From the NCBI GenBank assembly GCA_903906365.1, contig CAIVKC010000041.1:124001-188000 (forward strand): a stretch of 64,000 bases of DNA, in the 5' to 3' direction. This document shows, in pieces, positions 4,437 to 24,211 of this stretch. The notes beneath the pieces were generated by a model. It was not told the origin of the DNA. It did no database searches and worked only from the letters and a program-made list of their open reading frames with translations. Made by a program: the position numbers and the translations under genes. The stretch comes from an uncultured Bacteroidota bacterium. Its GTDB lineage: Bacteria > Bacteroidota > Bacteroidia > Chitinophagales > Chitinophagaceae. Every line of letters starts with the position of its first letter. Within the stretch, counting starts at the first letter, position 1.

Positions 4437-5306
4437 ATGCCAACCCGTCGCCATTTTCTCAAACAGGCTTCTGTAGCTACCTCCGGATTACTGTTGAATA
4501 AGTCAAACTGGTTTAAGGAGCCCCAGCTCATCGGGCTGCAGCTCTATACCGTTCGCGATGAAATCAAAATGGATGTGAAGGGTACGATTGCCAGGGTGGC
4601 CTCCGTGGGTTTCAATTCGGTAGAGGTTTTCGGCTATGAAAGCGGTCATTTCTTTGGCCTGGAGCCCGCAGCCTTTTCAGCCATACTTAAGCAATATAAC
4701 CTCAAGACCCCCAGTGGCCACTATGTGATGAAAGATTTCCTGGCAAAGGGGGATGAAGACAACCTCAAACGCACGGTAGCGGACGCAGCCAAAATGGGTC
4801 ACGAGTTTTTTGTGGTACCCTACCTGACCGAAGACCTTCGCCAAAGCCTGGACGACTATAAGAAACTGGCCGCCCACCTCAACAGGGCGGCGGAAGAGGC
4901 TAAGAGTGCCGGTATGCAGCTGGCCTATCATAACCACGATTTTGAATTCAAGGACTGGGGAGGCGGAAAAAATGGTTTTCAGATACTGATCGCTGAAACA
5001 GATCCCGCACTGGTGAGCCTGGAAATGGATATGTACTGGATAACCAGGGCAGGGTTAAACCCCGTGGACATGATCAAGGCCAACAAAGGCCGGATCAAAA
5101 TGTGGCATATCAAAGACATGGCCAACACGCCTGAGAAAGAATTCACTGAAGTCGGCAGCGGGATTATCAACTACAAGGAAATCTTTAAATACAAAAAAGA
5201 GTCCGGCATGAAATACTTTTTTGTAGAACAGGACAAGACCAAAATACCTGTCTTTGATAGTATCGCCAAAAGTTTTCAGTACATCAAAAACAATATACTG
5301 TCCTGA
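4437..5306 (+). CDS. Tat-exported sugar phosphate isomerase/epimerase-like TIM-barrel protein
   Basis: This 289-residue xylose isomerase-like TIM barrel starts with a twin-arginine type leader (MPTRRHFLKQASVATSGLL). Likely metal and catalytic residues are His165/His167 in LAYHNHDFEF, Asp198 in LEMDMYW, His224 in WHIKDMA and Glu264 in FFVEQDK. These barrels isomerise or epimerise keto sugars, and relatives next to DUF1080 and GMC genes are linked to 3-keto sugar metabolism. The Tat leader places this copy outside the cytoplasm after folding. It is followed 89 bases later by a Tat-exported Gfo/Idh/MocA oxidoreductase, so the two probably form a transcription unit. It is one of four such barrels in the window; the substrate is not predictable. 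Confidence 0.85.
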   Translation: MPTRRHFLKQASVATSGLLLNKSNWFKEPQLIGLQLYTVRDEIKMDVKGTIARVASVGFNSVEVFGYESGHFFGLEPAAFSAILKQYNLKTPSGHYVMKDFLAKGDEDNLKRTVADAAKMGHEFFVVPYLTEDLRQSLDDYKKLAAHLNRAAEEAKSAGMQLAYHNHDFEFKDWGGGKNGFQILIAETDPALVSLEMDMYWITRAGLNPVDMIKANKGRIKMWHIKDMANTPEKEFTEVGSGIINYKEIFKYKKESGMKYFFVEQDKTKIPVFDSIAKSFQYIKNNILS

Positions 5307-5395
5307 TCCCGGCGCTTATTGCCTGACTTTCCGGATAGCTCCGGATGAGGGGCCCCTTTGTCTTCTTTATAATTTTCCCTGTTAAAATTCAATAC

Positions 5396-8633: not shown

Positions 8634-9383
8634 TTACAGCGCGCGGACTTTGATATTTCGGTACCATACGTCACACCCGTGGTCCTGCAGGGCAATCCTG
8701 CCGGCTTTGTACTTGGAAAAATCAGGCATCGAGTTGAACTTGCTGCCTTTGACGAGTTTCCACCAGTTTTCATCCCACATGGTGGTGGATACCACGTTTA
8801 CTCCGTTCATGTAAAGATCCAGCTTACCTTTGTTCAGTTTGATTTCAACCTGGTTCCACCGGCCGACCGCCCGAACAGGTTCGGAGGAACTCCGGATCAG
8901 GTCATAGAGATCACCTGCCCGGTGTTTGATGATTTTACCGTCTGAGTGGCCATCGTTGTCGAGCACCTGCATCTCAGGACCGGTATTCCAGGTCTCTGCG
9001 TACTTGGGGTCTTCTTTGACATCAAAAAGAATCCCGCTGTTGCCGTTACTGGATATCTTCCATTCTATTTTAAGGTCGAAATTTTCAAACTCCTGATCGG
9101 TGACTACATCTCCGCCGCCCTTGCTCTGGTAGGAGGATTTTTGGGAAGCATCCAAATGAAGGGTGCCCTCACTCACCTTCCAGGCTTCGCCGACAGCAGA
9201 TTTGCCGAAGGTATGCCAGCCGGTGGTGGTCTTACCGTCAAATAGCAACTTCCAGCCCTCTTTTTTCTCCGCCTCACTTAACGTATTGACGGGAGCCTGC
9301 GGGGGAGAGGATATTTTTTTAGGGGAAAAAGCAAGACCCGCCGTGATCAACACGGCAGGTAAGGCAAGCAATATGATTTTCAT
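8634..9383 (-). CDS. Exported DUF1080 (3-keto-disaccharide hydrolase) protein
   Basis: This 249-residue protein has a short signal peptide (MKIILLALPAVLITAGLAF) and one DUF1080 concanavalin-like domain. Recognisable blocks are EGWKLLFDGKTTTGWHTFGK, the QEFENFDLKIEWKIS strand, NSGILFDV, and the C-terminal GRIALQDHGCDVWYRNIKVR. The family is now named 3-keto-disaccharide hydrolase because members cleave glycosidic bonds of sugars oxidised at C3. Here it would act in the periplasm on products of the GMC dehydrogenases encoded divergently. It lies six bases downstream of the cytochrome c gene and 62 bases upstream of the ThuA gene. Substrate preference cannot be read from the sequence. Confidence 0.9.
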   Translation of the reverse strand: MKIILLALPAVLITAGLAFSPKKISSPPQAPVNTLSEAEKKEGWKLLFDGKTTTGWHTFGKSAVGEAWKVSEGTLHLDASQKSSYQSKGGGDVVTDQEFENFDLKIEWKISSNGNSGILFDVKEDPKYAETWNTGPEMQVLDNDGHSDGKIIKHRAGDLYDLIRSSSEPVRAVGRWNQVEIKLNKGKLDLYMNGVNVVSTTMWDENWWKLVKGSKFNSMPDFSKYKAGRIALQDHGCDVWYRNIKVRAL

Positions 9384-9389
9384 CCGGTC

Positions 9390-9785
9390 TTATTTTTTAA
9401 GTGAGAGAATGTATTTCACCATTTCCTTCACATCGGCTTCAGCCAGTTGGGGATGCGGTGTCATTGGAACAGCTCCCCAGACACCACTGCCACCGGAGAT
9501 GACTTTTTTAACAAGTCTGTCAACGGTGGTATCGGCCGCTGGAGCATACTTTTTGGCTACTTCGCTGTACGAGGGTCCGATGGCCGCCCCTGCACTGGCC
9601 TGCTGAAGCCTGTGACAGGTGGTACAGTCGCTGGCGCCGATCAACTCAAGACCTTTTGTGTTGCTGGCTACGGGTGCCGCTTCTTTGGCGGCGGTATCTT
9701 TTGCTTCCGCTGTCTTTGTTTCGCCTGAATTGCCGCATGCCACTGCAAGCAGTGTGCAGCCCAGAATAATGAATGTCTTTTTCAT
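9390..9785 (-). CDS. Lipoprotein mono-haem cytochrome c
   Basis: This 131-residue small cytochrome has a lipobox ending in LLAVAC (Cys17), an Ala/Lys/Thr-rich linker (about 20-45), haem motif CTTCH (Cys54, Cys57, His58) and a likely axial Met108 in AVPMTPHP. The pattern matches class I cytochromes c552 used as periplasmic electron acceptors. Glycoside 3-dehydrogenases and gluconate 2-dehydrogenase-type enzymes need a c-type cytochrome partner. The GMC array on the opposite strand has no cytochrome of its own, so this protein is the obvious candidate to accept its electrons. It is cotranscribed with the TIM-barrel gene upstream and the DUF1080 gene six bases downstream. Confidence 0.92.
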   Translation of the reverse strand: MKKTFIILGCTLLAVACGNSGETKTAEAKDTAAKEAAPVASNTKGLELIGASDCTTCHRLQQASAGAAIGPSYSEVAKKYAPAADTTVDRLVKKVISGGSGVWGAVPMTPHPQLAEADVKEMVKYILSLKK

Positions 9786-9842: not shown

Positions 9843-10898
9843 TCAGGATAACCCTAAAACAGCGCGATTAAATTTCTCATCCGATCCGGTGTTTGCAAAA
9901 TCGTCGAAGGCCCTTTCAGTGACCCGGATGATGTGGTCACGTATAAACAAGGCCCCTTCCCTGGCACCATCCTCTGGATGCTTGATGCAGCATTCCCATT
10001 CCAGTACAGCCCATCCGGGGAAATCGTAGGCAGTGAGCTTACTGAATATCGATTTGAAATCCACCTGACCGTCCCCCAGGGAACGGAAACGTCCTGCGCG
10101 GTCAATCCAGTTCTGGTAACCGCCGTAAACGCCTTGTTTGCCGGTGGGGTTGAACTCGGCATCCTTGACGTGGAACATCCTGATCCGCTCGTGATAGTGG
10201 TCAATATAACTGAGGTAATCCAGGCACTGAAGCACAAAATGGGAAGGATCATACAGCAGGCAGGCCCTGGGATGATGGCCGGTATGTTTCCAGAACAGCT
10301 CGTAGGTCACGCCGTCATGCAGGTCTTCCCCCGGATGAATTTCATAACAGAGGTCTACACCCTGCTCGTCAAAACTGTGGAGAATTGGCAGCCAGCGCTT
10401 GGCCAGTTCCCTGAAACCGGTTTCCACCAGCCCGGCGGGTCGTTGGGGCCAGGGATACATGGTTGGCCAGAGCAGGGCCCCGCTGAACGTGGCATGGGCA
10501 CTGAGACCCAGATTCCGGGAGGCCTTGGCGGCATAGTGCAGCTGCTGCACCGCCCACTCCGTTCTGGCCTTGGGATTGTTCCTGACTTCGGCCGGGGCAA
10601 AACCGTCAAACTGGGCATCGTAGGCCGGGTGCACAGCCACCAGCTGTCCCTGCAGATGGGTGGAGAGTTCAGTGATCTGCAATCCGGCTTCCTCGACGAT
10701 CCCCCTTATCTCATCGGCATAAGCTTTGCTTTCAGCCGCCTTTTTGAGGTCCAGGCACCTTGGATCCCAGGAGGGTATTTGTACACCGGCAAATCCCAGG
10801 CCCTTGGCCCATTTACAGATCGAGGCCAGTGTATTGAACGGGGCTTCCTCCCCCATGAATTGGGCCAGGAAGATGGCAGGTCCTTTGATTGTATGCAT
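9843..10898 (-). CDS. Cytosolic sugar phosphate isomerase/epimerase-like TIM-barrel protein
   Basis: The 351-residue TIM-barrel protein has no signal peptide and starts MHTIKGPAIFLAQFMG. Conserved metal-site segments are VDLCYEIHPGEDLHDG (Glu and His), LLYDPSHF (Asp and His), MFHVKDAEF (His and Lys) and VLEWECCIKHP (Glu). Members of this subgroup sit next to Gfo/Idh/MocA enzymes in sugar catabolic operons of Bacteroidota. The gene follows the cytosolic Gfo/Idh/MocA gene (53 bases between them) and precedes the cytochrome c gene. With its Gfo partner it would act on imported sugars or keto sugars. The specific reaction (isomerase, epimerase or lyase) is unknown. Confidence 0.87.
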   Translation of the reverse strand: MHTIKGPAIFLAQFMGEEAPFNTLASICKWAKGLGFAGVQIPSWDPRCLDLKKAAESKAYADEIRGIVEEAGLQITELSTHLQGQLVAVHPAYDAQFDGFAPAEVRNNPKARTEWAVQQLHYAAKASRNLGLSAHATFSGALLWPTMYPWPQRPAGLVETGFRELAKRWLPILHSFDEQGVDLCYEIHPGEDLHDGVTYELFWKHTGHHPRACLLYDPSHFVLQCLDYLSYIDHYHERIRMFHVKDAEFNPTGKQGVYGGYQNWIDRAGRFRSLGDGQVDFKSIFSKLTAYDFPGWAVLEWECCIKHPEDGAREGALFIRDHIIRVTERAFDDFANTGSDEKFNRAVLGLS

Positions 10899-10951: not shown

Positions 10952-12118
10952 TCAAGATTCAAAGGGCGTCCATTTCTGGGCAGATTGACCGGAGGCGACG
11001 ACCGTATCGATGAAGGCCATGCCGCGGATTCCGTCTGCGACTCCGGGAAAATCCAGCGCTTCGGCAGAGGGTTTTTTCCCTTCGGCTTTGGCAGAAAGGG
11101 TGAGGGCAAAATTTTTGTAAATATTGGCAAATGCCTCCAGGTAACCCTCCGGATGACCGCCCGGCGTGCGGCAGTTCTGGGTCGCGTAGGATGACAGATG
11201 ACCTGTGTAGTTGCTTCCTGCCCTCAGGATCTGGGTGGGCTGGTCCAGCCACTTAACTACCAGGGTATTGGGCTCATGCTGTGCCCATTCCAGGCCGCCT
11301 TTTTCCCCATAGATCCGGATGCGCAGGGCATTTTCCTCTCCGGCAGCTACCTGGGAGGCCATCAGTACTCCGGCCGCGCCATTGTCAAATTTGAGAAGTA
11401 CATTGCCATCGTCGTCCAGGGCCCTTCCTTCCACCATGATATTGAGGTCTGCGCACAGGTGGGTGATTCGCAGGCCGGTGATGTATTCAGCCAGGTGGGC
11501 GGCATGCGTGCCGATATCCCCCATGCAGCCGCTTTTGCCGGATTTGGAGGGGTCTGTTCTCCAGGCCGCCTGCGCGTTCCCTTCCCTTTCGGTTTTTTTG
11601 CTGAGCCATCCCTGGGGATATTCCACCCATACCTTCCGGATTTTTCCAAATACATGATCGGCCACCATCGCCCTGGCCTGTTTGACCATGGGATATCCCG
11701 AATAAGTATGCGTCAGACACAGGGTCAGTCCCGTTTGGTTTACTTTCTGCTGGAGCTGTCTGGCCTCCTCAATGGTGAAGGCGATGGGCTTTTCAATGAC
11801 TACGTGAAACCCATGGTCCAGAGCCATCATGGCAGGGGCAAAATGGGCGAAATTGGGCGTCACTATGGTTACAAAGTCCATTCTTTTATCCGGGGGCAGG
11901 CTGCTTTCCTTTAAGATCATTTCTTCGAAGTTCATATAAATGCGGTCCTGCGGCAAAAACAGCATCTCCCCTGATTCCAGGGCTATCTCGGGCTTGATGC
12001 TGAGGGCCCCGCATACCAGTTCAATAAGACCATCCATATTGGCGGCAAGCCGGTGAATGGCGCCAATGAAGGCATCCTTGCCTCCGCCTACCATTCCCAT
12101 TCTGAGTTTTCTGTGCAT
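10952..12118 (-). CDS. Cytosolic Gfo/Idh/MocA family oxidoreductase
   Basis: The protein has 388 residues and no signal peptide. The Rossmann motif is GMVGGGKDAFIG at residues 8-19, the signature EKPIAFT is at 109-115, and the substrate side shows MGDIGTHAAHLAEYITG with a likely catalytic His. C-terminal NYTGHLSSYA and GHPEGYLEAFANIYKNF are typical of sugar or inositol-type dehydrogenases of this family, which use NAD(P) to oxidise or reduce hydroxyls of sugars. ThuB, the partner of ThuA, belongs to the same superfamily, and this operon also encodes a ThuA-like protein. It is the first gene of the minus-strand operon and is transcribed away from the MFS-GMC operon across a 267-base AT-rich region. 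Confidence 0.88.
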   Translation of the reverse strand: MHRKLRMGMVGGGKDAFIGAIHRLAANMDGLIELVCGALSIKPEIALESGEMLFLPQDRIYMNFEEMILKESSLPPDKRMDFVTIVTPNFAHFAPAMMALDHGFHVVIEKPIAFTIEEARQLQQKVNQTGLTLCLTHTYSGYPMVKQARAMVADHVFGKIRKVWVEYPQGWLSKKTEREGNAQAAWRTDPSKSGKSGCMGDIGTHAAHLAEYITGLRITHLCADLNIMVEGRALDDDGNVLLKFDNGAAGVLMASQVAAGEENALRIRIYGEKGGLEWAQHEPNTLVVKWLDQPTQILRAGSNYTGHLSSYATQNCRTPGGHPEGYLEAFANIYKNFALTLSAKAEGKKPSAEALDFPGVADGIRGMAFIDTVVASGQSAQKWTPFES

Positions 12119-12385: not shown

Positions 12386-13669
12386 ATGTCAGCTTCCATT
12401 CAGCGCAACAAACTTTTCGTGGCCTCCTGTTCGGCCCTGCTCGTAACTTCTTTGTCCTTCGGCATCCGTGCCGGAATACTGAACAAACTTGGTACAGAAT
12501 TTCATTTAAATGCCTCTGAACTGGGCACCATTGCCGCCACGGCTTTCTGGGGTTTCCCGCTGGCCATCATCGTGGGGGGCTTCATTGTGGATGTCATCGG
12601 CATGAAAAAGCTGCTGGTCATGGCCTTTGTGTTCCACCTCGGCGGCATATTGCTGACCATTTTTGCCAACGGATATTGGACCCTGTTTCTTTCCACCCTG
12701 CTCATCGGCATTGCCAACGGTACGGTCGAAGCAGCCTGTAACCCGCTGGTGGCCTCGCTGTTTCCGGATAATAAGACTACCAAACTCAATCATTTTCACC
12801 TCTGGTTTCCGGCAGGTATTGTGATCGGCACACTGATCGTATTCCTGCTTGACAAGCTGGGTGTCAGCTGGCAGGTCGAAGTAGCCACCATGATTGCACC
12901 CACCCTGGTGTACGGATATCTTTTCTCCAAACTGGGTTTTCCGGTCACCGAAAGGGTGGCAGCCGGAGTTTCCACGGCAGAAATGTACAAGGCCCTGCTG
13001 AGTCCGCTGTTTCTTTTTATGATTATCTGCATGTTTGGCACGGCCATCACCGAGCTCTTTACCAACCAGTGGACCGACGTACTTTTCAAAACAGTTACAG
13101 ACAATGCGATCCTGATACTCACCTTTGTGGCCTCCGTGCAGGTGCTGGGCCGTGCCTTTGCCAGCCCGATTGTTCACCGCCTCGCCCCGCAGGGGGTGTT
13201 GCTGGTTTCGGCCATCCTTTCAGCTCTTGGTATTTATATGCTGATTCACCTCCATGGTACGGCCATATTCGCCGGGGCCATTGTCTTTGGCCTGGGGGTT
13301 GCATTCTTCTGGCCATGCATGATTGGATTTGTTTCCGAAAACATGCCCAAGACAGGTGCAGTGGGCCTGAACCTGATCGGGGGAGCCGGCATGTTCGGTG
13401 TATCCCTTTATATGATCTTCATGGGAGGCTATTATGACCGCATCATGGCTGCCAAGCTACCGGCAGGGGCGAGCCTCGATGACTACCGTTCGGCAGCGCC
13501 GGGCACTGCGATGGCTACCGCTTTCAATGATGCCCGTACAGCGGCGGGCCCTGATGTATTAAACGCCACATTAATAATTCCTGTAATGTTAATAGTTGCT
13601 TTTGCAGGACTAACCATCTACCTGCGCGGCAAGAAAAAGCCAGATCTGCTGCATACAGCGGGGGTTTAG
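12386..13669 (+). CDS. MFS sugar transporter (FucP/NupG-like)
   Basis: This 427-residue major facilitator protein has about 12 hydrophobic segments. The first half includes the loop GGFIVDVIGMKKLL typical between TM2 and TM3, and the second half includes FASPIVHRLAPQGVLL and FGLGVAFFWPCMIGF. The general look (FHLWFPAGIVIGTLIVF, NGTVEAACNPLVASLF) is that of the sugar:proton symporter group in Bacteroidota annotated as sugar MFS transporters. It is the first gene of the plus-strand operon, 104 bases ahead of the TIM-barrel gene and the GMC array, so it probably imports their products (mono- or keto-sugars) across the inner membrane. No TonB-dependent receptor or SusD homologue is encoded in the island. 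Confidence 0.88.
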   Translation: MSASIQRNKLFVASCSALLVTSLSFGIRAGILNKLGTEFHLNASELGTIAATAFWGFPLAIIVGGFIVDVIGMKKLLVMAFVFHLGGILLTIFANGYWTLFLSTLLIGIANGTVEAACNPLVASLFPDNKTTKLNHFHLWFPAGIVIGTLIVFLLDKLGVSWQVEVATMIAPTLVYGYLFSKLGFPVTERVAAGVSTAEMYKALLSPLFLFMIICMFGTAITELFTNQWTDVLFKTVTDNAILILTFVASVQVLGRAFASPIVHRLAPQGVLLVSAILSALGIYMLIHLHGTAIFAGAIVFGLGVAFFWPCMIGFVSENMPKTGAVGLNLIGGAGMFGVSLYMIFMGGYYDRIMAAKLPAGASLDDYRSAAPGTAMATAFNDARTAAGPDVLNATLIIPVMLIVAFAGLTIYLRGKKKPDLLHTAGV

Positions 13670-13773
13670 GCGGTTTAGCGCCTGCCGCTGATAATTTTAC
13701 TGAGCAATTAATCATTTTTCCGGTTTCAGCAACCGGAAGAATTCGTAAATTACTTTTTTAATTCGTTCAATTC

Positions 13774-14661
13774 ATGTCCAACCAACCTTCACGCAGGCTT
13801 GCCATTAAAAATATTGTAGCAGGAACAGCTGCCCTGGGAGCTTCAGGAATGCTCACTTCGTTCACCCAATCGGAATCTTTAACCTCCACCGCCTTGAAAG
13901 GAAATATCAATCATTCTGTTTGTCGCTGGTGTTTCAGCGACATCCCCCTGGAAAGCTTCTGTGCCTCGGTCAAAAAATTGGGTCTGGGTGCCATTGACCT
14001 GATCGCTCCCAAAGAATGGCCGGTGTTGCAGAAATATGGGCTCTATTCTTCCATGTGTTATATAGCCGGAGAGGTCAGTCTCACCAAGGGGTTTAATAAC
14101 CCGGCCTATCATGAAAGCCTGGTAAAAGACTACCTGGAAGTCATACCCATGATGAAAAAGGCGGGATACAAGGACCTGATCTGTTTCAGCGGAAGCCGGG
14201 CAGGTATGGATGATGAGACCGGACTAAAAAATTGTGTGGCGGGTCTGCAAAAAATTCTGCCGCTGGCCGAGAAAAACGGCATCACCATTCAAATGGAATT
14301 ACTCAACAGCAAAGTAGATCATAAAGATTACATGTGCGACCGCACGCCCTGGGGTGTGGAACTGGTAAAGCGCACCGGTTCCGCGAATTTTAAACTGCTC
14401 TATGACATTTATCATATGCAGGTGGATGAAGGGGACGTGATCCATACCATCCGGGAGAACCACCCCTATATCGGCCATTATCACACTGCCGGCGTACCGG
14501 GCAGAAATGAAATTGACGAGACCCAGGAACTGTATTACCCGGCCATCATGAGGGCCATTCAAGAAACCGGATTTAAGGGCTATGTTGCCCAGGAGTTCAT
14601 TCCGAAGAAAAAGGATGCCATCGGGTCACTCAGGGAAGCCATTCTGATTTGCGATATCTGA
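13774..14661 (+). CDS. Tat-exported hydroxypyruvate isomerase-like TIM-barrel protein
   Basis: The protein has 295 residues with a Tat-type leader MSNQPSRRLAIKNIVAG (Arg7-Arg8). The TIM barrel shows the metal-site residues expected of the hydroxypyruvate isomerase/sugar isomerase family: Glu in TIQMELLNSKVDHKDYM, Asp and His in LLYDIYHMQVDEGDV, His in YIGHYHTAGVPGRNE, and Glu in YVAQEFIPK. Such exported copies commonly accompany GMC dehydrogenases in Bacteroidota; hydroxypyruvate itself is an unlikely periplasmic substrate. It lies between the MFS gene and the first GMC gene (59-base gap) and is best read as a periplasmic keto-sugar isomerase or lyase. It is similar in type to the protein at 60613-61533, which also pairs with a GMC gene. 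Confidence 0.85.
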   Translation: MSNQPSRRLAIKNIVAGTAALGASGMLTSFTQSESLTSTALKGNINHSVCRWCFSDIPLESFCASVKKLGLGAIDLIAPKEWPVLQKYGLYSSMCYIAGEVSLTKGFNNPAYHESLVKDYLEVIPMMKKAGYKDLICFSGSRAGMDDETGLKNCVAGLQKILPLAEKNGITIQMELLNSKVDHKDYMCDRTPWGVELVKRTGSANFKLLYDIYHMQVDEGDVIHTIRENHPYIGHYHTAGVPGRNEIDETQELYYPAIMRAIQETGFKGYVAQEFIPKKKDAIGSLREAILICDI

Positions 14662-14720: not shown

Positions 14721-16400
14721 ATGGCTGATAACACCTTCGATGCTATTGTAATTGGATCAGGGATCAGTGGCGGCTGGGCTGCCAAGGAACTCACCGAAAA
14801 GGGCCTGAAGACCATTATGCTGGAACGCGGCAAACAGATCGAACATGTAAAGGATTATGTCAATGCCCAAAAGGAAGCCTGGGACTATCCCCATCATAAC
14901 CGCGCCACGGTGCAGATGAAAAAGGACTATCCGGTGCTTAAGAGGGATTACCCCCTCAATGAAAGTAACCTGGACTGGTGGGTCAATGACCAGGAATCCC
15001 CCTATACCGAGATCAAGCGTTTTGACTGGTTCCGCGGATATCATGTGGGCGGACGTTCCCTGCTCTGGGGGCGCCAGAGTTACCGTCTGAGTGACTTTGA
15101 TTTTGAGGCCAACGCCAAGGACGGAATTGCCATAGACTGGCCGCTGCGTTACCAGGAAATTGCCCCCTGGTATGATTACGTGGAAAAATTTGCGGGCATA
15201 AGCGGCAACCGCGACGGACTGCCCCAGTTGCCCGATGGTCATTTCATGCCTCCCATGGATATGACCTGCGTGGAAAAAGACGTGGCCGGCCGCATCAAGG
15301 AACATTACAAGGGAGCGCGCTCCATGATTATCGGCCGCACGGCCAATATCACCGAACCCCTCCCGGGCAGGACCAACTGCCAGTACAGGAACAAATGCTG
15401 GCTGGGCTGCCCATTTGGCGCCTACTTCAGCACGCAGTCATCCACCCTGCCTGCTGCCATGAAAACCGGGAACCTCACGCTCCGGCCCTGGAGCATTGTC
15501 ACCAAAATCCTTTATGATAAGGATAAGAAAAAAGCTACCGGTGTGGAAGTACTGGATGCGGAGACAAACCAGACCATCGTCTATAAAGCAAAAATTATAT
15601 TCCTGAACGCCTCCACCCTGAACAGTGCCTGGATTCTGATGAATTCCGCCACTGACATCTGGCCCGACGGGCTGGGAAGCAGCAGCGGGGAACTCGGACA
15701 TAATATTATGGATCACCACCTCGGGGTGGGTGCCGGCGGAAGGGTAGAGGGCTACGAAGACAAATACACCTATGGACGCCGGGCGAACGGAATCTATATC
15801 CCGCGTTACCGGAACCTCTTTGGCGACAAGCGCGACTACCTGCGCGGTTTCGGTTACCAGGGCGGGGCAGGCAGGGGACGCGGACTGGCCTCCGCCGAGG
15901 AGCTCTCCATTGGGGCCGATTACAAAGAAGCCCTCAGCCAGCCAGGTTCCTGGTATATGAATATTGGTGGTTTTGGGGAAACCTTACCCTACCACGAAAA
16001 CAAGGTAACCCTGGACAAGACCCGAAAAGATAAATGGGGCCTCAATGTGCTGGCCATGGACATTGAGTATAAAGACAACGAAAAAAGAATGCGTAAGGAT
16101 ATGATGAACGACGCGGTGGAAATGCTGGAAGCCTGCGGCGTGAAAGATGTCAAGGGGCATGACGGGGACGGGACCCTGGGCCGGGGCATCCATGAAATGG
16201 GTGCCGCCCGGATGGGAAAAGACCCCAAGACTTCGGTGCTCAATAAGTTCAACCAGGTATGGGACGCACCCAATGTATTTGTGACGGACGGTTCTTTTAT
16301 GACCTCCGCTTCCTGTGTGAATCCCTCCCTGGGTTATATGGCATTTACGGCGCGGGCTGCTGACCATGCCGTCAGTGAACTCAAGAAAGGAAATCTTTGA
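14721..16400 (+). CDS. GMC oxidoreductase, array copy 1 (subgroup A)
   Basis: A 559-residue FAD flavoprotein of the glucose-methanol-choline family. It has the dinucleotide motif GSGISGGWAAKEL (residues 12-24), a second FAD segment GGRSLLWGRQSYR, the cysteine cluster C-x5-C-x3-C (Cys220, Cys226, Cys230), and the active-site pair His491 (HEMGAARMG) and Asn534 (CVNPSLGYM). It resembles the catalytic subunit of gluconate 2-dehydrogenase, FAD-glucose dehydrogenase and glycoside 3-dehydrogenase; the Cys spacing is the one that holds an Fe-S cluster in FAD-glucose dehydrogenase. There is no signal peptide, so export probably depends on the Tat small subunit at 23636. It is the first of five tandem paralogues and is closest to copy 2. 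Confidence 0.92.
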   Translation: MADNTFDAIVIGSGISGGWAAKELTEKGLKTIMLERGKQIEHVKDYVNAQKEAWDYPHHNRATVQMKKDYPVLKRDYPLNESNLDWWVNDQESPYTEIKRFDWFRGYHVGGRSLLWGRQSYRLSDFDFEANAKDGIAIDWPLRYQEIAPWYDYVEKFAGISGNRDGLPQLPDGHFMPPMDMTCVEKDVAGRIKEHYKGARSMIIGRTANITEPLPGRTNCQYRNKCWLGCPFGAYFSTQSSTLPAAMKTGNLTLRPWSIVTKILYDKDKKKATGVEVLDAETNQTIVYKAKIIFLNASTLNSAWILMNSATDIWPDGLGSSSGELGHNIMDHHLGVGAGGRVEGYEDKYTYGRRANGIYIPRYRNLFGDKRDYLRGFGYQGGAGRGRGLASAEELSIGADYKEALSQPGSWYMNIGGFGETLPYHENKVTLDKTRKDKWGLNVLAMDIEYKDNEKRMRKDMMNDAVEMLEACGVKDVKGHDGDGTLGRGIHEMGAARMGKDPKTSVLNKFNQVWDAPNVFVTDGSFMTSASCVNPSLGYMAFTARAADHAVSELKKGNL

Positions 16401-16486
16401 TCATTCCATACCAGACAGCATCCTTGGATGGGGCATGCACTACCGCCCTGTCCCAACATTGACGAACATCCTAAAATTGTATATCC

Positions 16487-18166
16487 ATGGCTGACAATAT
16501 CTATGATGCGATTGTTATTGGTTCAGGGATCAGTGGCGGCTGGGCTGCCAAGGAGCTCTCCGAAAAGGGACTCAAGACCCTCATGCTGGAAAGGGGCAAG
16601 AACATAGAACATATAAAGGATTATCCCAGTGCAGACAAGGAAGCCTGGAATTTTCCGCACCGTGGGGAGCGCACCCAGCAAATGCTGAAGGATTACCCGG
16701 TGCTACAGCGGGATTACCCCCTCAATGAAACCAACCTCGACTGGTGGGCCTCCGACAAGGACAGCCCCTATACGGAAGTCAAGCGTTTCGACTGGTTTCG
16801 CGGCTACCACGTAGGGGGCAGGTCCCTGATGTGGGGGAGGCAGAGTTACCGGTGGAGCGACATGTACTTTGAGGAAAATGCCAGGGACGGAATCGCCATC
16901 GACTGGCCTGTACGTTACCGTGACATAGAACCCTGGTACGATTATGTGGAAAAATTTGCCGGGGTAAGCGGTTCTTCCGAAGGCCTCCCGCAATTGCCGG
17001 ATGGTCATTTCCTGCCAGCTATGCAGATGAACTGCGTGGAAAAGGAAGTGGTGGCCAGAATGAAGGCATTCTATAAAGGGAAACGTCCCATGATCATCGG
17101 CCGGGTGGCCCATGTCACCGGCCCCCACCCCGACAGGCAGCAGTGCCAGTTCAGGGACAAATGCTGGGTAGGCTGCCCGTTCGGCGGTTATTTCTCTACC
17201 CAGTCCTCCACACTGCCCGCGGCCATGAAGACGGGAAACCTGACCCTGCGCCCCTGGGCCATTGTGACCAAAATCCTCTATGACAAGGATTCCAAACGGG
17301 CTACCGGAGTGGAAGTCCTTGATGCACAAACCAACAAAACCTACGAATACCGCGCTAAACTCATATTCCTCAATGCTTCAGCGCTCAACAGTGCCTGGAT
17401 CCTGATGAACTCAGCGACCGATATCTGGCCCGACGGACTGGGCAGCAGCAGCGGTGAACTGGGCCACAACGTCATGGACCATCACCTCGGCGTGAGTGCC
17501 AGCGGAACCTTTGAGGGTTTTGAGGACAAATTTGTTTTCGGCCGCCGGGCCAACGGTGTATATGTGCCCAGGTTCCGTAACTTCTTCGGCGACAAGCGCG
17601 ATTACCTGCGCGGCTTTGGCTACCAGGGTGGTGCGGGAAGGGAAGGCTGGGACCGTGAGATCCCAGAATACAGCATCGGGGCCGAATACAAAGAGGCCCT
17701 TACCGAGCCGGGCCCCTGGACGATGGGCATCGGTGGATTCGGGGAAACGCTGCCTTACCATGATAACAAAGTAACCTTAGACAAGACCAGGAAAGACAAG
17801 TGGGGCCTCAATGTACTGTCCTTTGACTGTGAACTGAAGGAAAATGAACTGAAGATGCGAAAGGATATGCTCAATGATGCCAAAGAAATGCTGGAAGCAG
17901 CTGGCGTGAAAAACATCCATGGCCAGGATTCCAACCCCTACCTGGGACGTGGTATCCATGAAATGGGCACGGCCCGCATGGGCAAGGATCCCAAGACCTC
18001 GGTGCTCAATAAATGGAACCAGGTATGGGACGCTCCGAATGTTTTTGTAACGGATGGTTCCTTCATGACTTCTGCGGCATGCCAGAACCCTTCGCTGACC
18101 TATATGGCCTTCACGGCCCGAGCGGCTGATTATGCGGTCAGTGAACTCAAGAAAAGAAATCTCTGA
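16487..18166 (+). CDS. GMC oxidoreductase, array copy 2 (subgroup A)
   Basis: The 559-residue protein has exactly the same length as copy 1 and aligns with it almost without gaps. It has FAD motif GSGISGGWAAKEL, cysteines in CQFRDKCWVGC (C-x5-C-x3-C), and the active-site pair His491 (HEMGTARMG) and Asn534 (CQNPSLTYM). Differences from copy 1 concentrate in the substrate-side regions, for example GSSEGLPQLPDGHFLPAMQM and GREGWDREIPEYSIG. That suggests diverged substrate range rather than simple dosage. Predicted role: periplasmic FAD dehydrogenase for a sugar or glycoside hydroxyl, passing electrons to cytochrome c. It lacks a signal peptide. The gap to copy 1 is 86 bases. Confidence 0.92.
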   Translation: MADNIYDAIVIGSGISGGWAAKELSEKGLKTLMLERGKNIEHIKDYPSADKEAWNFPHRGERTQQMLKDYPVLQRDYPLNETNLDWWASDKDSPYTEVKRFDWFRGYHVGGRSLMWGRQSYRWSDMYFEENARDGIAIDWPVRYRDIEPWYDYVEKFAGVSGSSEGLPQLPDGHFLPAMQMNCVEKEVVARMKAFYKGKRPMIIGRVAHVTGPHPDRQQCQFRDKCWVGCPFGGYFSTQSSTLPAAMKTGNLTLRPWAIVTKILYDKDSKRATGVEVLDAQTNKTYEYRAKLIFLNASALNSAWILMNSATDIWPDGLGSSSGELGHNVMDHHLGVSASGTFEGFEDKFVFGRRANGVYVPRFRNFFGDKRDYLRGFGYQGGAGREGWDREIPEYSIGAEYKEALTEPGPWTMGIGGFGETLPYHDNKVTLDKTRKDKWGLNVLSFDCELKENELKMRKDMLNDAKEMLEAAGVKNIHGQDSNPYLGRGIHEMGTARMGKDPKTSVLNKWNQVWDAPNVFVTDGSFMTSAACQNPSLTYMAFTARAADYAVSELKKRNL

Positions 18167-18293
18167 GTTGTAACTGCCATTGGCAAATGCGGGGCTTTGA
18201 GCGGTTTGTCCATAAAATAACAACATACGTCCCCCATTGACAGCAACAGGCGGGGAGGATTGAATAGGATCTTTAGAACCACAACTGGTAAGC

Positions 18294-20024
18294 ATGCCCG
18301 GGGATTCTTCAAGGCTACATATCAATTCAGGGGGAGTCTCCAAAAACTCCTTTGATGCCATTGTCATCGGATCCGGCATCAGTGGCGGCTGGTCTGCCAA
18401 GGAGCTCTGCGGCCAGGGATTGAAAACCCTGCTGCTGGAGCGCGGCAGGAATGTCGTTCACCTCAAAGATTACCCCACCACCAATATGGCACCCTGGGAG
18501 TTTGCTCACAGGGGAAAACTACCCGCTTCGGTAAGCAGGGAAAACCCCGTGGTAAGCCGCTGTTATGCCTTCGATGAGGCAACATCCCATTTTTTTGTCA
18601 AGGACAGGGAGCATCCCTACATTCAGGAAAAACCATTTGACTGGATCCGCGGTTATCAGGTTGGAGGGAAATCCCTGATCTGGGCCAGGCAGACCCAGCG
18701 GTGGAGCGCCTATGATTTTGAAGGCCCGGCCAGGGACGGCTTTGCCGTGGACTGGCCGCTGCGCTATGATGATATCGCCCCCTGGTATTCCTATGTGGAA
18801 AAATTTGCCGGCATATCCGGTAACCGGGACGGGCTGGATACGCTGCCCGATGGCGAGTTCCTTCCTGCCTGGGATATGAACTGCGTGGAACAGGAGATCC
18901 AGCAGAAAATCAATCTGAATTATCCGGGCCGCCATGTCGTGCAGGGGCGCTGCGCCCACCTGACCAAGCCTGCCGCGGTGCACCTGGAGCAGGGCAGGGG
19001 TCAATGCCAGGCCCGCAGCCTCTGTTACAGGGGCTGCCCATTCGGAGGGTATTTCAATTCCAACTCAACCACCATTCCCTGGGCACAGCGTACCGGCAAC
19101 CTCACGCTGAAGACCGAGTCGGTTGTGCATTCTATCATATATGATGAAAGCAGGCAAAGGGCTTCCGGAGTCAGGGTTATTGATGCGCTGACCGGTCAGG
19201 CCACCGATTATTTTGCCAGGATCATCTTTGTCAATGCCGCCTGTCTCAATACCAACCTCCTGCTGCTCAATTCCACCTCAGCCCGTTTTCCCCGGGGGCT
19301 GGGAAATGACAGCGGACTGCTGGGAAAATATATTGCCTTTCATAACTACCGGGGAACCGTCAGTGCTGCTTACCCGGGCCATGAAGACAAATATTATTAC
19401 GGGCGCCGCCCGACGCAGGCCATGATGCCCAATTTCAGGAACGTGAAACGGCAGGAAACCGATTTCCTGAGGGGCTATATGGTGCATTATGGTGCCGGGC
19501 GGAGCCGCGGGGGCGCGGGCCCGGCAGACCAGATCGGAGGTGCATTTAAGGATGCTCTTTCCGAACCCGGAGCCTGGCAGGTCACCATGATGATGCAGGG
19601 GGAGACCATTCCCAAAGAACGCAGCCAGGTTAGGCTGAGTGCCGATAAAACGGACGCCTGGGGCATTCCCCAGCTGGTGATCAGCGTGGATTACGACGAT
19701 AATGATGAAAAATTGCTGAAGGATTTTTTGGAGCAGGGAGCAGAGATGCTACATAAGGCCGGCTGCACCGACATCATCCAGCATGACAGTAAACAGGCTC
19801 CCGGGCTTGATATCCATGAAATGGGGGGCGTGAGAATGGGCCGTGATCCGGCTACCTCCCTGCTCAACCCATGGAACCAGCTGCACCACTGTCCAAACGT
19901 GTATGTGACGGATGGGGCCTGCATGGTATCTACCAGCACCCAGAATCCATCCCTGACCTATATGGCACTCACGGCCAGGGCGGCAGACCATGCCGTCCGG
20001 TCACTTAAACGGGGAGATTTATGA
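18294..20024 (+). CDS. GMC oxidoreductase, array copy 3 (subgroup B)
   Basis: The protein has 576 residues. It begins MPGDSSRLHINSGG, a leader shared in part with copies 4 and 5, before FAD motif GSGISGGWSAKEL. The cysteine cluster CQARSLCYRGC keeps C-x5-C-x3-C. The active-site residues are His in HEMGGVRMG and Asn551 in STQNPSLTYM. Subgroup B features shared with copy 4 are HFFVKDREHPYIQEKPF, GGYFNSNSTTIPWAQRTG and NDSGLLGKYIAFHNYRG, which replaces the MDHHLG segment of subgroup A. The different loop set implies a different substrate class from copies 1, 2 and 5. It follows copy 2 after 127 bases, the widest gap in the array, so a secondary promoter there is possible. Confidence 0.92.
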   Translation: MPGDSSRLHINSGGVSKNSFDAIVIGSGISGGWSAKELCGQGLKTLLLERGRNVVHLKDYPTTNMAPWEFAHRGKLPASVSRENPVVSRCYAFDEATSHFFVKDREHPYIQEKPFDWIRGYQVGGKSLIWARQTQRWSAYDFEGPARDGFAVDWPLRYDDIAPWYSYVEKFAGISGNRDGLDTLPDGEFLPAWDMNCVEQEIQQKINLNYPGRHVVQGRCAHLTKPAAVHLEQGRGQCQARSLCYRGCPFGGYFNSNSTTIPWAQRTGNLTLKTESVVHSIIYDESRQRASGVRVIDALTGQATDYFARIIFVNAACLNTNLLLLNSTSARFPRGLGNDSGLLGKYIAFHNYRGTVSAAYPGHEDKYYYGRRPTQAMMPNFRNVKRQETDFLRGYMVHYGAGRSRGGAGPADQIGGAFKDALSEPGAWQVTMMMQGETIPKERSQVRLSADKTDAWGIPQLVISVDYDDNDEKLLKDFLEQGAEMLHKAGCTDIIQHDSKQAPGLDIHEMGGVRMGRDPATSLLNPWNQLHHCPNVYVTDGACMVSTSTQNPSLTYMALTARAADHAVRSLKRGDL

Positions 20025-20103
20025 GCAGGCCCCGGTAGGGCAATAGGGCAAAAATGAGCAGTTTAATAAAATAAAACACCAAGGGAATAACCTCCCGGCA
20101 AAG

Positions 20104-21837
20104 ATGGACAACGATACCACCACAAGACATATTAACTCAGGCGGGGCTGCGGCCAACACCTTTGATGCCATCGTGATCGGTTCGGGCATCAGCGGCGGCT
20201 GGGCTGCCAAGGAGCTCTGTGAAAAGGGGCTGAAGACCCTGGTGCTGGAAAGGGGCCGCAGTGTGGTGCATCTGAAGGATTATCCGACGGCCAGCATGAA
20301 TCCCTGGGAATTTAAGCACCGGGGCCGGATGACCAGGGCATTCATGGAGGAAAATCCCCTCATTACCCAGGCGGCCGGATTTGGTGAGGATACGGCCCAT
20401 TTTTTTATCCGTGATAAGGACCATCCCTATGTGCAGGAAAAGCCCTTTGAATGGATCCGGGGCTACCAGGTCGGCGGAAAATCCCTGATATGGGGCAGGG
20501 CCTGTCCCCGGTGGAGTCATTTTGAATTTACAGCACCGGCCAGACTGGGCTATGGCATAGAGTGGCCCATAACCTATGATGAGATTGCACCCTGGTATTC
20601 CCATGTGGAGCTGTTTGCCGGAATCTGTGGCAACAGGGACGGGCTGGAAGCCATGCCGGATGGAGAATACCTGCCCCCATTTGATTTCAACTGCGTGGAA
20701 AAAGACCTTCAACAGAAAATACATGCCAAATACAAAAACCGGTTTATGATTCAGGGCCGCTGGGCCCAGCTCACCGAAGCCAGGGACATTCACCGTCAGC
20801 AGGGAAGGGGCAGGTGCCAGTCGCGGGATATGTGCATGCGGGGATGCCCGTTTGGCGGCTACTTCAGCTCGGTATCCTCCACCCTGCCCTGGGCTGCCCG
20901 CACGGGCAAGCTGACCATCAGGCCTTTCTCTGTGGTTCATTCCATCATCTACGACGAAAAGAAAGGAAAAGCGACCGGTGTGCGGATCATTGACACCATC
21001 ACCCGGGAAGAGACCAGCTATTTTGCCCGCATCATCTTTGTCAACGCGTCCACCCTCAATTCCAACCTGATCCTGCTCAATTCCACTTCCACCCGGTTTC
21101 CATCCGGCCTGGGCAACGATAATGGTTTGTTGGGAAAATACATCTGCCACCATAATTACCGGGGTTCACTGGGCGGGACGCTGGAAGGCTATGAGGATAT
21201 TTATTATTACGGTCGCAAGCCGGCTGAGTCCATGATGGCCAATTACCGCAATCTGCATAAACAGGACACTGATTTTGTGGGTGGCTACATGGCTTTTATG
21301 GGCGCGTCCCGAAGCCAGGGTGCTGGCGAGGAGCTGCCCGTCCAGATAGGGGCCGCTTACAAGGAAGCCATGAGCGAGGCAGGCGGGTGGGGTATGTACA
21401 TGTATATGCAGGGGGAAACCATACCCAAATTATCCAATCATGTATCCTTAAGCAGGGAGCAGAAAGATCCCTGGGGCATCCCCCAGCTGGTCACCCATGT
21501 CGAATATGATGAGAACGATGAAAGACTGCTCAAGGATTTTCTGGACCAAAGCGCAGAGATGCTGGACAACGCCGGAGTGAAAAACATTACCAGGCACGAT
21601 AATCACTGGGCCCCGGGCAGGGATATTCATGAAATGGGCGGCTGCAGGATGGGCAAGGATCCCGGAACCTCCCTGCTGAACAAATGGAATCAGCTGCACA
21701 GTTGCAGCAATGTATTTGTAACCGACGGGGCCTGTATGACCAGTACGGCCAACCAGAGCCCCTCCATATTGTACATGGCACTGACAGCAAGGGCCGCCGA
21801 CCATGCCGTGGCGGAAATGAAACGGATGAACCTCTAA
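20104..21837 (+). CDS. GMC oxidoreductase, array copy 4 (subgroup B), catalytic Asn replaced by Ser
   Basis: The protein has 577 residues and starts MDNDTTTRHINSGG. The FAD motif GSGISGGWAAKEL and the cysteine cluster CQSRDMCMRGC are intact, and the first active-site residue (His in HEMGGCRMG) is present. At the second active-site position the array consensus xNPS is replaced: the codons at 21751-21759 read Asn-Gln-Ser, so the aligned residue is Ser552. The gap-free flanks (ACMTSTANQS...YMALTARAADHAV) make the alignment secure. The family uses His or Asn there to position the substrate hydroxyl, so this copy may have altered activity or specificity, or a regulatory role. The rest of the reading frame is intact, which argues against a decaying gene. 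Confidence 0.92.
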   Translation: MDNDTTTRHINSGGAAANTFDAIVIGSGISGGWAAKELCEKGLKTLVLERGRSVVHLKDYPTASMNPWEFKHRGRMTRAFMEENPLITQAAGFGEDTAHFFIRDKDHPYVQEKPFEWIRGYQVGGKSLIWGRACPRWSHFEFTAPARLGYGIEWPITYDEIAPWYSHVELFAGICGNRDGLEAMPDGEYLPPFDFNCVEKDLQQKIHAKYKNRFMIQGRWAQLTEARDIHRQQGRGRCQSRDMCMRGCPFGGYFSSVSSTLPWAARTGKLTIRPFSVVHSIIYDEKKGKATGVRIIDTITREETSYFARIIFVNASTLNSNLILLNSTSTRFPSGLGNDNGLLGKYICHHNYRGSLGGTLEGYEDIYYYGRKPAESMMANYRNLHKQDTDFVGGYMAFMGASRSQGAGEELPVQIGAAYKEAMSEAGGWGMYMYMQGETIPKLSNHVSLSREQKDPWGIPQLVTHVEYDENDERLLKDFLDQSAEMLDNAGVKNITRHDNHWAPGRDIHEMGGCRMGKDPGTSLLNKWNQLHSCSNVFVTDGACMTSTANQSPSILYMALTARAADHAVAEMKRMNL

Positions 21838-21896
21838 GAGCTGCCTCCAGGGGCAGTGAACCCAGGGGATGGCCTACTTATAAAATGAAATGATCT

Positions 21897-23612
21897 ATGC
21901 CAGGGGATACTTTACATATCAACAACCGCGCTGAAGAACAGCAACGCTATGATGCCATCGTCATTGGCTCCGGCATCAGCGGCGGATGGGCTGCCAAGGA
22001 GCTTACCGGGCAGGGACTAAAGACCCTCATGCTGGAAAGGGGCAGGAATTTCGAACATGTAAAGGATTACCACAGTGCCTCCATGAATCCATGGGATTTT
22101 GCCCACCGGGGCAGCGAAACCGTTCAACAGCGCAAAGACAGGCCGGTGATTTCCAGGGGCTGGGGTGCCTCCGAACCCATCATGGATTACTGGGCCGATG
22201 AAAAGGATTGCCCCTACACGGAAATTAAGCCCTTCAACTGGTGGCGTTCCTACCAGCTTGGCGGCCGTTCCATCCTTTGGGGCAGGCAGTCTTATCGGTG
22301 GAGCGATCTGGATTTTGAGGCCAATAAGAAGGATGGGTGGGCCATTGACTGGCCGATACGTTACCGTGACCTGGCTCCATGGTATGACCATGTTGAAAAA
22401 CACATCGGGGTCAGCGGATCGATGGAAGGATTGCCTCAGCTGCCCGATGGTCATTTTCTGCCTCCCATGGATATGACCTGTGTGGAAAAGGTGGTTGCCG
22501 AGCGCATAAAGGCCCACTTTAAAGGTGCGCGCCGGATGATTATCGGGCGCAGCGCCAACCTGACGGTGCCCATTGCCGGGCGTACCCGTTGCCAGTTCAG
22601 GAACCGATGCTGGGAAGGCTGTCCCTATGGCGGCTATTTCAGTACGCAGTCCTCCACACTGCCTCCGGCGCTGGCCACAGGTAAACTGACGGTGAGGCCT
22701 TTTTCCATCGTCACCAAAATCCTCTATGATAAGTACAGCCGAAAGGCCAAGGGAGTAGAAGTGCTGGATTCCCAGACACATAAGACCTATGAATTCAATG
22801 CAAAGGTTATATTTGTCAATGCTTCTGCGCTTAACAGTGCCTGGGTGCTGATGAACTCTGCCACCGATCTCTGGCCGGAGGGCCTGGGCAGCTCAAGCGG
22901 GGAACTTGGCCACAATGTCATGGACCATCATTATAACCTGGGTGCTTCGGGTATCATGGAAGGCTTCGAGGATAGTTACTATTATGGCCGGCGGCCAAAC
23001 GGGATTTATATTCCCCGCTTTGCCAATTTATTTGGGGACCGGCGGGCATACCTTCGGGGATTTGGTTACCAGGGAGGGGGTAACCGCGAGGACTGGAGCC
23101 GCGATATCGCCGAACTCAGTGTGGGCGCTCAACTCAAGGAAGCGCTGACTGAACCCGGCGCCTGGTCGGTGGGAATAGGCGGATTCGGCGAACTCCTGCC
23201 CTATCATGAAAACAAGATCAGCCTGGATAAAAACCGGCGGGACAAATGGGGGCTGCCCGTCCTGTCCATGGATGCCGAAATAAAGGAAAACGAGTATAAG
23301 ATGAGAAAGGACATAGTGTCGGAGGCCATCGCTATGCTGGAGGCCGCCGGTGTGCAACAGGTAAAGGGACATGACAAAGGCCATCAGGTGGGTGATGGCA
23401 TCCATGAAATGGGGACGGCGCGCATGGGCCGGGATCCGAAGACCTCTGTGCTCAATGAGCATAACCAGGTATGGGATGCCAAAAATGTATTTGTGACAGA
23501 TGGGGCCTGTATGGTATCTTCAGCCTGTCAAAACCCTTCGCTTACCTATATGGCGCTGACCGCAAGGGCAGCTGCCTATGCGGTGGATCAATTAAAGAAA
23601 GGAAACATTTAA
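21897..23612 (+). CDS. GMC oxidoreductase, array copy 5 (subgroup A body with subgroup B-like leader)
   Basis: The protein has 571 residues. The first residues MPGDTLHINNRA resemble the MPGD...HINSGG leader of copy 3, while the body follows copies 1 and 2: KDCPYTEIKPFNWW, QLPDGHFLPPMDMTCVEK, GHNVMDHHYNLGASG and GFGELLPYHENK. It has FAD motif GSGISGGWAAKEL, cysteine cluster CQFRNRCWEGC (C-x5-C-x3-C), His in HEMGTARMG and Asn546 in CQNPSLTYM. The mixed architecture suggests recombination within the array. It ends 23 bases before the small-subunit gene, the tightest spacing in the array, so this copy may have been the original partner of the small subunit. Confidence 0.92.
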   Translation: MPGDTLHINNRAEEQQRYDAIVIGSGISGGWAAKELTGQGLKTLMLERGRNFEHVKDYHSASMNPWDFAHRGSETVQQRKDRPVISRGWGASEPIMDYWADEKDCPYTEIKPFNWWRSYQLGGRSILWGRQSYRWSDLDFEANKKDGWAIDWPIRYRDLAPWYDHVEKHIGVSGSMEGLPQLPDGHFLPPMDMTCVEKVVAERIKAHFKGARRMIIGRSANLTVPIAGRTRCQFRNRCWEGCPYGGYFSTQSSTLPPALATGKLTVRPFSIVTKILYDKYSRKAKGVEVLDSQTHKTYEFNAKVIFVNASALNSAWVLMNSATDLWPEGLGSSSGELGHNVMDHHYNLGASGIMEGFEDSYYYGRRPNGIYIPRFANLFGDRRAYLRGFGYQGGGNREDWSRDIAELSVGAQLKEALTEPGAWSVGIGGFGELLPYHENKISLDKNRRDKWGLPVLSMDAEIKENEYKMRKDIVSEAIAMLEAAGVQQVKGHDKGHQVGDGIHEMGTARMGRDPKTSVLNEHNQVWDAKNVFVTDGACMVSSACQNPSLTYMALTARAAAYAVDQLKKGNI

Positions 23613-23635
23613 TTTCACAAATAAAAGCAAATAGT

Positions 23636-24211
23636 ATGAACAGACGAGAAGCATTATCCAGTGTGGCGGTACTGTTGGGAGGTACCATCATTGGGGCAGA
23701 GGCTTTCCTATCCGGCTGTAAGCTCAGTGATAAGAAGACCGCCGGGACGCTAGATTTTTCCAAAGAGAATATTGCCTTTTTGGATGAAGTCGGTGAAACG
23801 ATCCTGCCCGCAACGGCCTCCTCACCCGGCGCCAAGGAAGCCAGGATCGGTGAGTTTATGAAAACCATTGTCACAGACTGTTACGAGGACGGGGACCATA
23901 AGACCTTTATGGAAGGCATTGGCAAACTAAACGAAGCCTCCAAGGCCAAGTACTCCAAGGATTTTATGGAACTGGCTCCCACCGAGAAACACGATCTGCT
24001 GGTTATCCTGGACAAGGAAGCCAAGGATTACCAGAAAGCCAAGAAGGCCGAGGATCCCAACCATTATTTTCACCTGATGAAGCAATTAACCCTCTGGGGC
24101 TTTTTTACCTCAGAACCAGGAGCTACCAAGGCCCTCCGCTACATCGCGGTACCGGGCCACTATGATGGTTGTGTGCCCTATAAGAAAGGAGATAAAGCAT
24201 GGGCTACCTAG
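23636..24211 (+). CDS. Gluconate 2-dehydrogenase subunit 3-like small subunit (Tat lipoprotein)
   Basis: The protein has 191 residues from the ATG at 23636. The leader MNRREALSSVAVLLGG contains a twin Arg (3-4) and is followed by lipobox LSGC (Cys28), so it is both a Tat substrate and a lipoprotein. The rest is the helical subunit 3 domain, with FLDEVGETILPATASSPGAKEA near its start and LWGFFTSEPGATKALRYIAVPG near its end. In gluconate 2-dehydrogenase, FAD-glucose dehydrogenase and glycoside 3-dehydrogenase this subunit binds the signal-less GMC subunit and carries it through the Tat pore. Only one such gene serves the five GMC genes upstream, so it probably pairs with several of them. Confidence 0.92.
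   Translation: MNRREALSSVAVLLGGTIIGAEAFLSGCKLSDKKTAGTLDFSKENIAFLDEVGETILPATASSPGAKEARIGEFMKTIVTDCYEDGDHKTFMEGIGKLNEASKAKYSKDFMELAPTEKHDLLVILDKEAKDYQKAKKAEDPNHYFHLMKQLTLWGFFTSEPGATKALRYIAVPGHYDGCVPYKKGDKAWAT

Follow-up and report, generated by a model that had tools for sequence, protein, structure and literature searches.

Five GMC dehydrogenase genes before one Tat-lipoprotein small subunit in a Chitinophagaceae genome: a candidate case of one carrier shared by several catalytic subunits

Can a single small subunit serve five catalytic subunits encoded just ahead of it? This question is raised by a stretch of 64,000 nucleotides, hereafter the window, from an uncultured Bacteroidota bacterium of the Chitinophagaceae (GenBank assembly GCA_903906365.1, contig CAIVKC010000041.1, positions 124,001 to 188,000), in which five GMC dehydrogenase genes stand in tandem before one gene of the gluconate 2-dehydrogenase subunit 3 family (Gluconate_2-dh3, PF13618), here called S. 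An earlier note on this DNA had suggested that S exports and docks several alternative catalytic subunits in a periplasmic sugar-oxidation system of broad specificity. On sequence comparison, we consider one S shared by several catalytic subunits to be the best available interpretation, with a probability of about 0.6, the binding of GMC proteins to S, their export, their reaction and the path of their electrons all being inferred.

The five genes lie on the plus strand and were assigned to subfamilies by a tree and its clades: gene 1 (14721-16400, 559 amino acids) belongs to a subfamily termed core, gene 2 (16487-18166, 559) to subfamily I, near the core, gene 3 (18294-20024, 576) to subfamily IV, gene 4 (20104-21837, 577) to subfamily V and gene 5 (21897-23612, 571) to subfamily III. 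All five proteins pass the curated Pfam cut-offs of GMC_oxred_N (PF00732) and GMC_oxred_C (PF05199), their frames are intact with no internal stop, their open reading frames (ORFs) are separated by 86, 127, 79 and 59 bases, and their pairwise identities range from 47 to 78%, in agreement with the five intact, diverged genes of the earlier note. S (23636-24211, plus strand) matches PF13618 with 121.5 bits against a cut-off of 23.4. Its longest ORF (23471-24211) runs into the last GMC gene; the conserved Tat start is the ATG at 23636, the methionine and the RR pair being invariant in an alignment of 47 of 49 S sequences (L094 and L120 excluded), and with this start, which we adopted, S follows gene 5 after 23 bases, as had been proposed. 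The motif TANNTTTG, the Bacteroidota promoter element, was searched for in the array gaps and not found there. Plus-strand terminator-like sites were absent from these gaps as well, and one lies at 13675, between the MFS transporter and TIM-barrel genes upstream; the overall counts of promoter-like (22 versus 11.0 expected) and terminator-like sites (22 versus 13.6 expected) are uninformative.

The distribution of export signals is as had been described. S bears a motif of the twin-arginine translocation (Tat) type, NRRE, and a lipobox, LSGC; RR and the lipobox Cys are found in 47/47 aligned rows, whose starts were picked with the RR in mind. By inspection, neither RR nor a strongly hydrophobic 12-mer occurs in the stretch from the first Met to the FAD motif in any of 99 full GMC ORFs (the tree set, drawn from arrays, loci with two or one GMC per S and one orphan), including the five of the window, and a GMC protein that lacks its own signal suggests carriage by S through Tat. 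S is thus presumed to be both Tat carrier and membrane dock. The closest solved relatives by sequence are the large subunits of fructose dehydrogenase (FDH) and of the FAD glucose dehydrogenase of Burkholderia cepacia (BcGDH). In the latter, as outlined in PMC6719666, a small "hitchhiker" gamma subunit with a Tat signal is thought to export the catalytic alpha subunit, whose 3Fe-4S cluster hands electrons to a periplasmic cytochrome subunit. The array shares with BcGDH the combination of a GMC large subunit and a small subunit with a Tat signal, as well as a C-x5-C-x3-C motif, kept in 99/99 rows, that aligns with the 3Fe-4S ligands Cys212, Cys218 and Cys222 and from which a cluster is predicted. 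There are differences too: the FAD-linking His105 is replaced by Leu, Met, Ile or Thr in 99/99 rows (position 115 of gene 2, aligned through FDH), Cys213 of the inter-subunit disulfide is mostly Gln in the array family, and BcGDH forms a 1:1 complex with a multi-heme cytochrome, whereas five GMC genes per S and a monoheme cytochrome c are present here. In the mechanism that we propose, each GMC protein would take up FAD, and probably a 3Fe-4S cluster, as it folds in the cytoplasm, and would pass, bound to S, through the Tat pathway; the genome (4.66 Mb, 99.94% complete) has one TatC match. S would be lipidated afterwards and keep the GMC protein at a membrane.

The layout recurs in relatives. 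We collected 109 distinct S-type small subunits from a genome set including genus genomes and from the best 80 of at least 543 relatives in a genome scan; nearly all record titles of the relatives of S name Bacteroidota, many of them Chitinophagaceae, and two name Proteobacteria. Same-strand GMC genes upstream of S were counted with a gap limit of 1.5 kb, 15 loci being limited by the end of the sequence, and the raw counts were none at 10 loci, one at 60, two at 22, three at 3, four at 3, five at 8, six at 2 and seven at 1. One locus (L074) holds a frame-broken GMC gene that was scored as three; after correction, three to seven GMC genes precede S at 16 loci, one or two at 83 and none at 10. 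A search of the kind that had been suggested thus meets arrays next to a single subunit 3 gene at 16/109 loci. A single upstream GMC gene is the most frequent number (61/109), in keeping with the statement that such enzymes normally have one subunit of each kind. The 16 arrays include L115, whose third gene is cut by a contig end; L121 has four GMC genes, and a stricter gap limit of 700 bases leaves 13 arrays of three or more. One array (G063) is complete, with seven GMC matches and S on one contig and no further match there, and the one-piece chromosome record CP128386.1 has four array GMC genes and one S, its two other small subunits adjoining their own GMC genes.

The array genes fall into recurring subfamilies. 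A tree of the 99 GMC rows (FastTree, local support only) sorts them into subfamilies found in many genomes, namely core, I, IV, V/Vb, III and VI, the core being the remainder around clade I and not a single supported branch. Of the 13 arrays in the tree, 12 contain subfamily I, and gene order is alike across arrays, with core or I first, the others next and S last. Arrays look as if they had grown by insertion between core and S, since core-S is the layout seen most often (55 of 109 loci), followed by core-III-S (11) and core-VI-S (8). Median pN/pS, with dS saturated in most pairs, is 0.15-0.22 in every subfamily, V included, and purifying selection of this kind speaks against recent redundant duplication. 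Judging from the tree, the five array genes stand for old orthologous lines whose order can be recognised, and are not recent copies.

One argument for sharing comes from the pairing of the other small subunits. The genome of the window has two PF13618 genes, and the one that is not S adjoins a divergent GMC gene of its own, amid neighbours (Leu/Phe-tRNA transferase, fatty acid desaturase) that seem to have no tie to sugars. Nine of the 33 genus genomes were examined for all non-S PF13618 genes (G000, G035, G127, G150, G163, G164, G165, G170 and G174). The earlier note had named as refuting evidence unlinked small-subunit genes that pair with the remaining array members; instead, 17/17 such genes stand beside their own GMC gene of a different type, eleven of a divergent type designated C61 (305-318 bits to the GMC profile) and six of a third type (823-887 bits). 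The third type occurs in G127, G150, G163, G164 and G174, and S and the C61 type alone in G000, G035, G165 and G170. Five of the six third-type small subunits have no clear lipobox; those at L236, L237, L241, L243 and L245 show RR, a hydrophobic stretch and no clear lipobox, and lie, in the order of transcription, just before their own GMC gene. At four Mucilaginibacter loci (L183, L190, L192 and L197) a small subunit and a GMC gene of third-type score, another GMC gene and, about 1.6 kb on, S follow each other on one strand, an order in which S and the third type stand together, neither displacing the other. In 32/33 genus genomes there are more GMC matches than PF13618 matches, the former taken at E up to 1e-20 and counted with fragments and other GMC types.

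GMC genes of the array type are also found away from any small subunit. In 14 genus genomes chosen for long contigs, 26 of 74 GMC genes among the matches listed (to about 884 bits) lack any PF13618 match on the same contig at a distance of up to 14 kb, a few of them lying on short contigs or near ends with less than 14 kb available. Together with two from other genomes these make 28 unlinked loci, and no small-subunit gene was found beside the GMC gene at any of them within about 4 kb on each side (less for L217, L218, L227 and L230). By best match, six of the 28 belong to subfamily IV, six to V, two to III, three to VI and eleven to a further subfamily that includes an orphan of the window's own genome. 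This orphan (L070, contig C45, 7980-9680) stands beside a TIM barrel and an alcohol dehydrogenase, and its subfamily occurs as single genes in 9/14 genus genomes, G000 included. G147, G150 and G163, in which S closes a short core-III-S operon, have both IV and V elsewhere, and G035 and G174 have V, which suggests that much of the same enzyme set is kept, linked to S or not. Our preferred reading is that S may act in trans as well as in cis and would serve alternative catalytic subunits of different specificity, those of its operon and probably the unlinked ones too. A further GMC gene of the window (58869-60404, minus strand, 511 amino acids) is 25-27% identical to the array proteins and belongs to a different branch, with no PF13618 gene nearby.

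Several results weigh against the sharing of S. The five GMC proteins show no significant extra conservation in the columns that correspond to the BcGDH interface: random column sets scored as high in 2338 of 10000 draws without the Fe-S cysteines and in 670 of 10000 with them, and in 650 of 10000 for all array rows without the Fe-S cysteines. S evolves no slower in arrays (distance ratio 1.82) than at loci with one GMC gene (1.81), the ratio at loci with two being 1.69. Neither a structural model of S (pLDDT 77; Foldseek) nor an S profile run against PDB sequences gave a significant match, which leaves homology to the fold of the BcGDH gamma hitchhiker unsupported. These interface, rate and fold tests neither support nor exclude binding between GMC proteins and S; the proposal of one carrier for several catalytic subunits stands as the best explanation through the pairing of small subunits, and gains nothing from the interface and rate tests. 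The linkage of S to GMC genes is moreover loose, since ten S loci have no GMC gene within 1.5 kb upstream: at the four Mucilaginibacter loci one lies about 1.6 kb away, at L076 two lie downstream, L142 borders a contig end, and L175, L177, L186 and L194 show no GMC gene in the surrounding DNA available. The third-type GMC is fairly close to the array type, and in 5/9 genomes its small subunit could thus carry the unlinked GMC proteins. Finally, Chryseolinea serpens (L137, G178) has nearly as many small subunits as GMC genes, seven against eight, which form seven adjacent pairs, the reverse of a one-to-many array.

Among the alternatives, the one that survives best is that only the core GMC protein, perhaps with subfamily I, uses S, the others being cytoplasmic enzymes that need no carrier and whose genes were inserted for co-regulation. 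Such a scheme would suit the predominance of the core-S unit, the position of the added genes between core (or I) and S, the unlinked III, IV, V and VI genes with no small subunit found nearby, and the interface result. It sits badly with the 3Fe-4S cysteine motif of all subfamilies, a cluster that feeds a periplasmic cytochrome in the BcGDH described in PMC6719666, and with the loci of two GMC genes at which III or VI is directly beside S, VI being even the sole GMC gene at S in L193; we consider it rather unlikely. Less probable still, and in our view improbable, is that each GMC protein has a different, unrecognised small subunit elsewhere and that nothing is shared. Partners of another family could have been missed, as the PF12318 search of the own genome gave no match with its controls silent too and is uninformative, and five of the nine genomes do contain third-type small subunits; yet every other PF13618 gene in these genomes has its own GMC neighbour, and four of them contain only the C61 type besides S. 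Neutral tandem amplification, with partly silent or decaying copies and S as the remnant of an original pair, might be read from the variable number of upstream GMC genes (1 to 7) and the broken gene of L074, but is very improbable given old orthologous subfamilies in similar order across genomes, their low pN/pS and the five intact frames of the window.

If S is shared, are its catalytic subunits equivalent? Gene 4 suggests otherwise. The catalytic pair of BcGDH is given as His476 and Asn519 (PMC6719666), and four of the five array genes have this His and Asn, within a QNPS motif in genes 2, 3 and 5 and VNPS in gene 1, whereas gene 4 combines the His with a Ser (QSPS) and keeps the three Fe-S cysteines. 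The aligned residue of FDH is Ala in chain 8xcn and Asn in 7w2j. The exchange recurs in every copy of the subfamily that was examined (20/20): Ser is present in 14/14 V/Vb genes by assignment at S loci and in 6/6 unlinked V genes, and Asn in 168/170 non-V genes at S loci, the other two being unreadable by the pattern, and in 22/22 other unlinked genes. Beyond R375G and Tyr at both 414 and 416, the 11 V/Vb rows of the tree have five more changes in common, and subfamily V retains His491 and the Fe-S cysteines. Subfamily V is thus conserved, with a chemistry that is probably altered, and it is possible that it is inactive. The alternative catalytic subunits of the earlier note are accordingly best described as four with the standard catalytic Asn and a fifth, gene 4, which lacks it and may differ in chemistry. 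Whatever its role, the subfamily is a naturally occurring variant in which the role of this second catalytic residue in GMC enzymes can be studied. A larger proposition would join these observations, namely that S is a genome-wide Tat carrier and dock for linked and scattered 3Fe-4S GMC proteins, to which new subunits could be added with no new partner, and that subfamily V, with its Asn to Ser exchange, R375G and Tyr 414/416, has a different chemistry or a regulatory, non-canonical role; as a whole we put it forward tentatively, and it seems doubtful.

Tat hitchhiking has so far been described with dedicated partners in the sources consulted, and in the open-licence PMC literature, judged mostly by abstracts, we recognised no description of several GMC subunits served by one Gluconate_2-dh3 subunit. 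What is new here is a one-to-many layout that recurs, with each other small subunit examined having its own partner, the finding of the same GMC subfamilies linked to S in some places and unlinked in others, and the subfamily with Ser for Asn; the three-component dehydrogenase module, of which the array is an expanded variant, was already known. If sharing is real, S would be a natural one-to-many carrier through which periplasmic sugar oxidation is widened by adding catalytic genes only, and partner recognition could be tested with five to seven natural ligands for one subunit. Related enzymes are, according to PMC9727119, under development for electrochemical sugar sensors, for which a carrier of several subunits could be useful.

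A likely pathway for the system is suggested by its surroundings, which the earlier note had passed over, as it had the Asn to Ser exchange of gene 4. Upstream of the array, on the plus strand, are, directly before it, a TIM barrel (AP_endonuc_2; 13774-14661) with a Tat-like N-terminus, which has a homologue in 12 of 13 big arrays, and, further out, an MFS transporter (12386-13669). The divergent half, on the minus strand, encodes, by profile matches, a Gfo/Idh/MocA oxidoreductase (10952-12118), a xylose-isomerase-like TIM barrel (9843-10898), a protein of the 3-keto-disaccharide hydrolase family (PF06439, DUF1080; 8634-9383) and one of the ThuA family (PF06283; 7807-8571), and between the second and third of these a monoheme, lipoprotein-like cytochrome c (9390-9785) with a CTTCH motif and a lipobox LLAVAC, the candidate electron acceptor. 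A second TIM barrel (4437-5306) and a further Gfo/Idh/MocA gene (5345-6727), both on the plus strand, probably belong to the same pathway. The cytochrome scores 36.4 bits with PF00034, above the cut-off, and falls below that of PF13442; it came up in the window in a genome search for cytochromes, and with 19 matches in the genome, different electron acceptors are possible. Homologues of the cytochrome were found at 65/109 S loci, many with short flanks, and of PF06439 at 55/109 within the available flanks.

On gene content, the operon is an expanded module of the glucoside-3-dehydrogenase or LacABC-like kind. In Caulobacter, Price et al. (2022; PMC9007349) connected LacABC and DUF1080 with lactose among other glycosides; in Pedobacter, they connected a putative lactose dehydrogenase with glycosides that include lactose and salicin. 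Because of this work and of the gene context, the GMC proteins would be expected to oxidise the C3 hydroxyl of glycosides; the monoheme lipoprotein cytochrome c encoded nearby would then receive the electrons of the 3Fe-4S cluster, and it would fall to the DUF1080, TIM-barrel, ThuA and Gfo/Idh proteins to hydrolyse and rearrange the 3-keto products. The broad-specificity sugar oxidation first proposed is, by this gene context, to be narrowed to a 3-keto-glycoside pathway. Compared by description, LacABC is likewise a three-component membrane dehydrogenase near PF06439 for which periplasmic 3-keto-glycoside chemistry was proposed (PMC9007349), the difference being a single such dehydrogenase there versus five GMC genes before one S, with the cytochrome c in the divergent half, here. 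The glucoside 3-dehydrogenase of Rhizobium radiobacter, also compared by description, resembles the proposed system in its FAD-dependent C3 oxidation and monoheme CYTc acceptor (PMC9915066).

Simpler versions of the module are carried by plasmids. That of Hymenobacter volaticus has, in a row, genes for a GMC protein, subunit 3, a permease, Gfo/Idh, an isomerase, a cytochrome c, a TIM barrel, an isomerase and DUF1080, and that of Xanthomonas sacchari a similar row, whereas the stretch of Ketogulonicigenium robustum (isomerase, Gfo/Idh, GMC, subunit 3, isomerase) is without cytochrome c, permease and DUF1080. All three differ from the window in having one GMC gene per small subunit. They resemble it in a GMC protein 66-73% identical to gene 2 beside subunit 3, together with isomerase or TIM-barrel and Gfo/Idh genes, and the Hymenobacter and Xanthomonas modules also in their cytochrome c, their DUF1080 and a "nucleoside permease" at the place that matches the MFS transporter.

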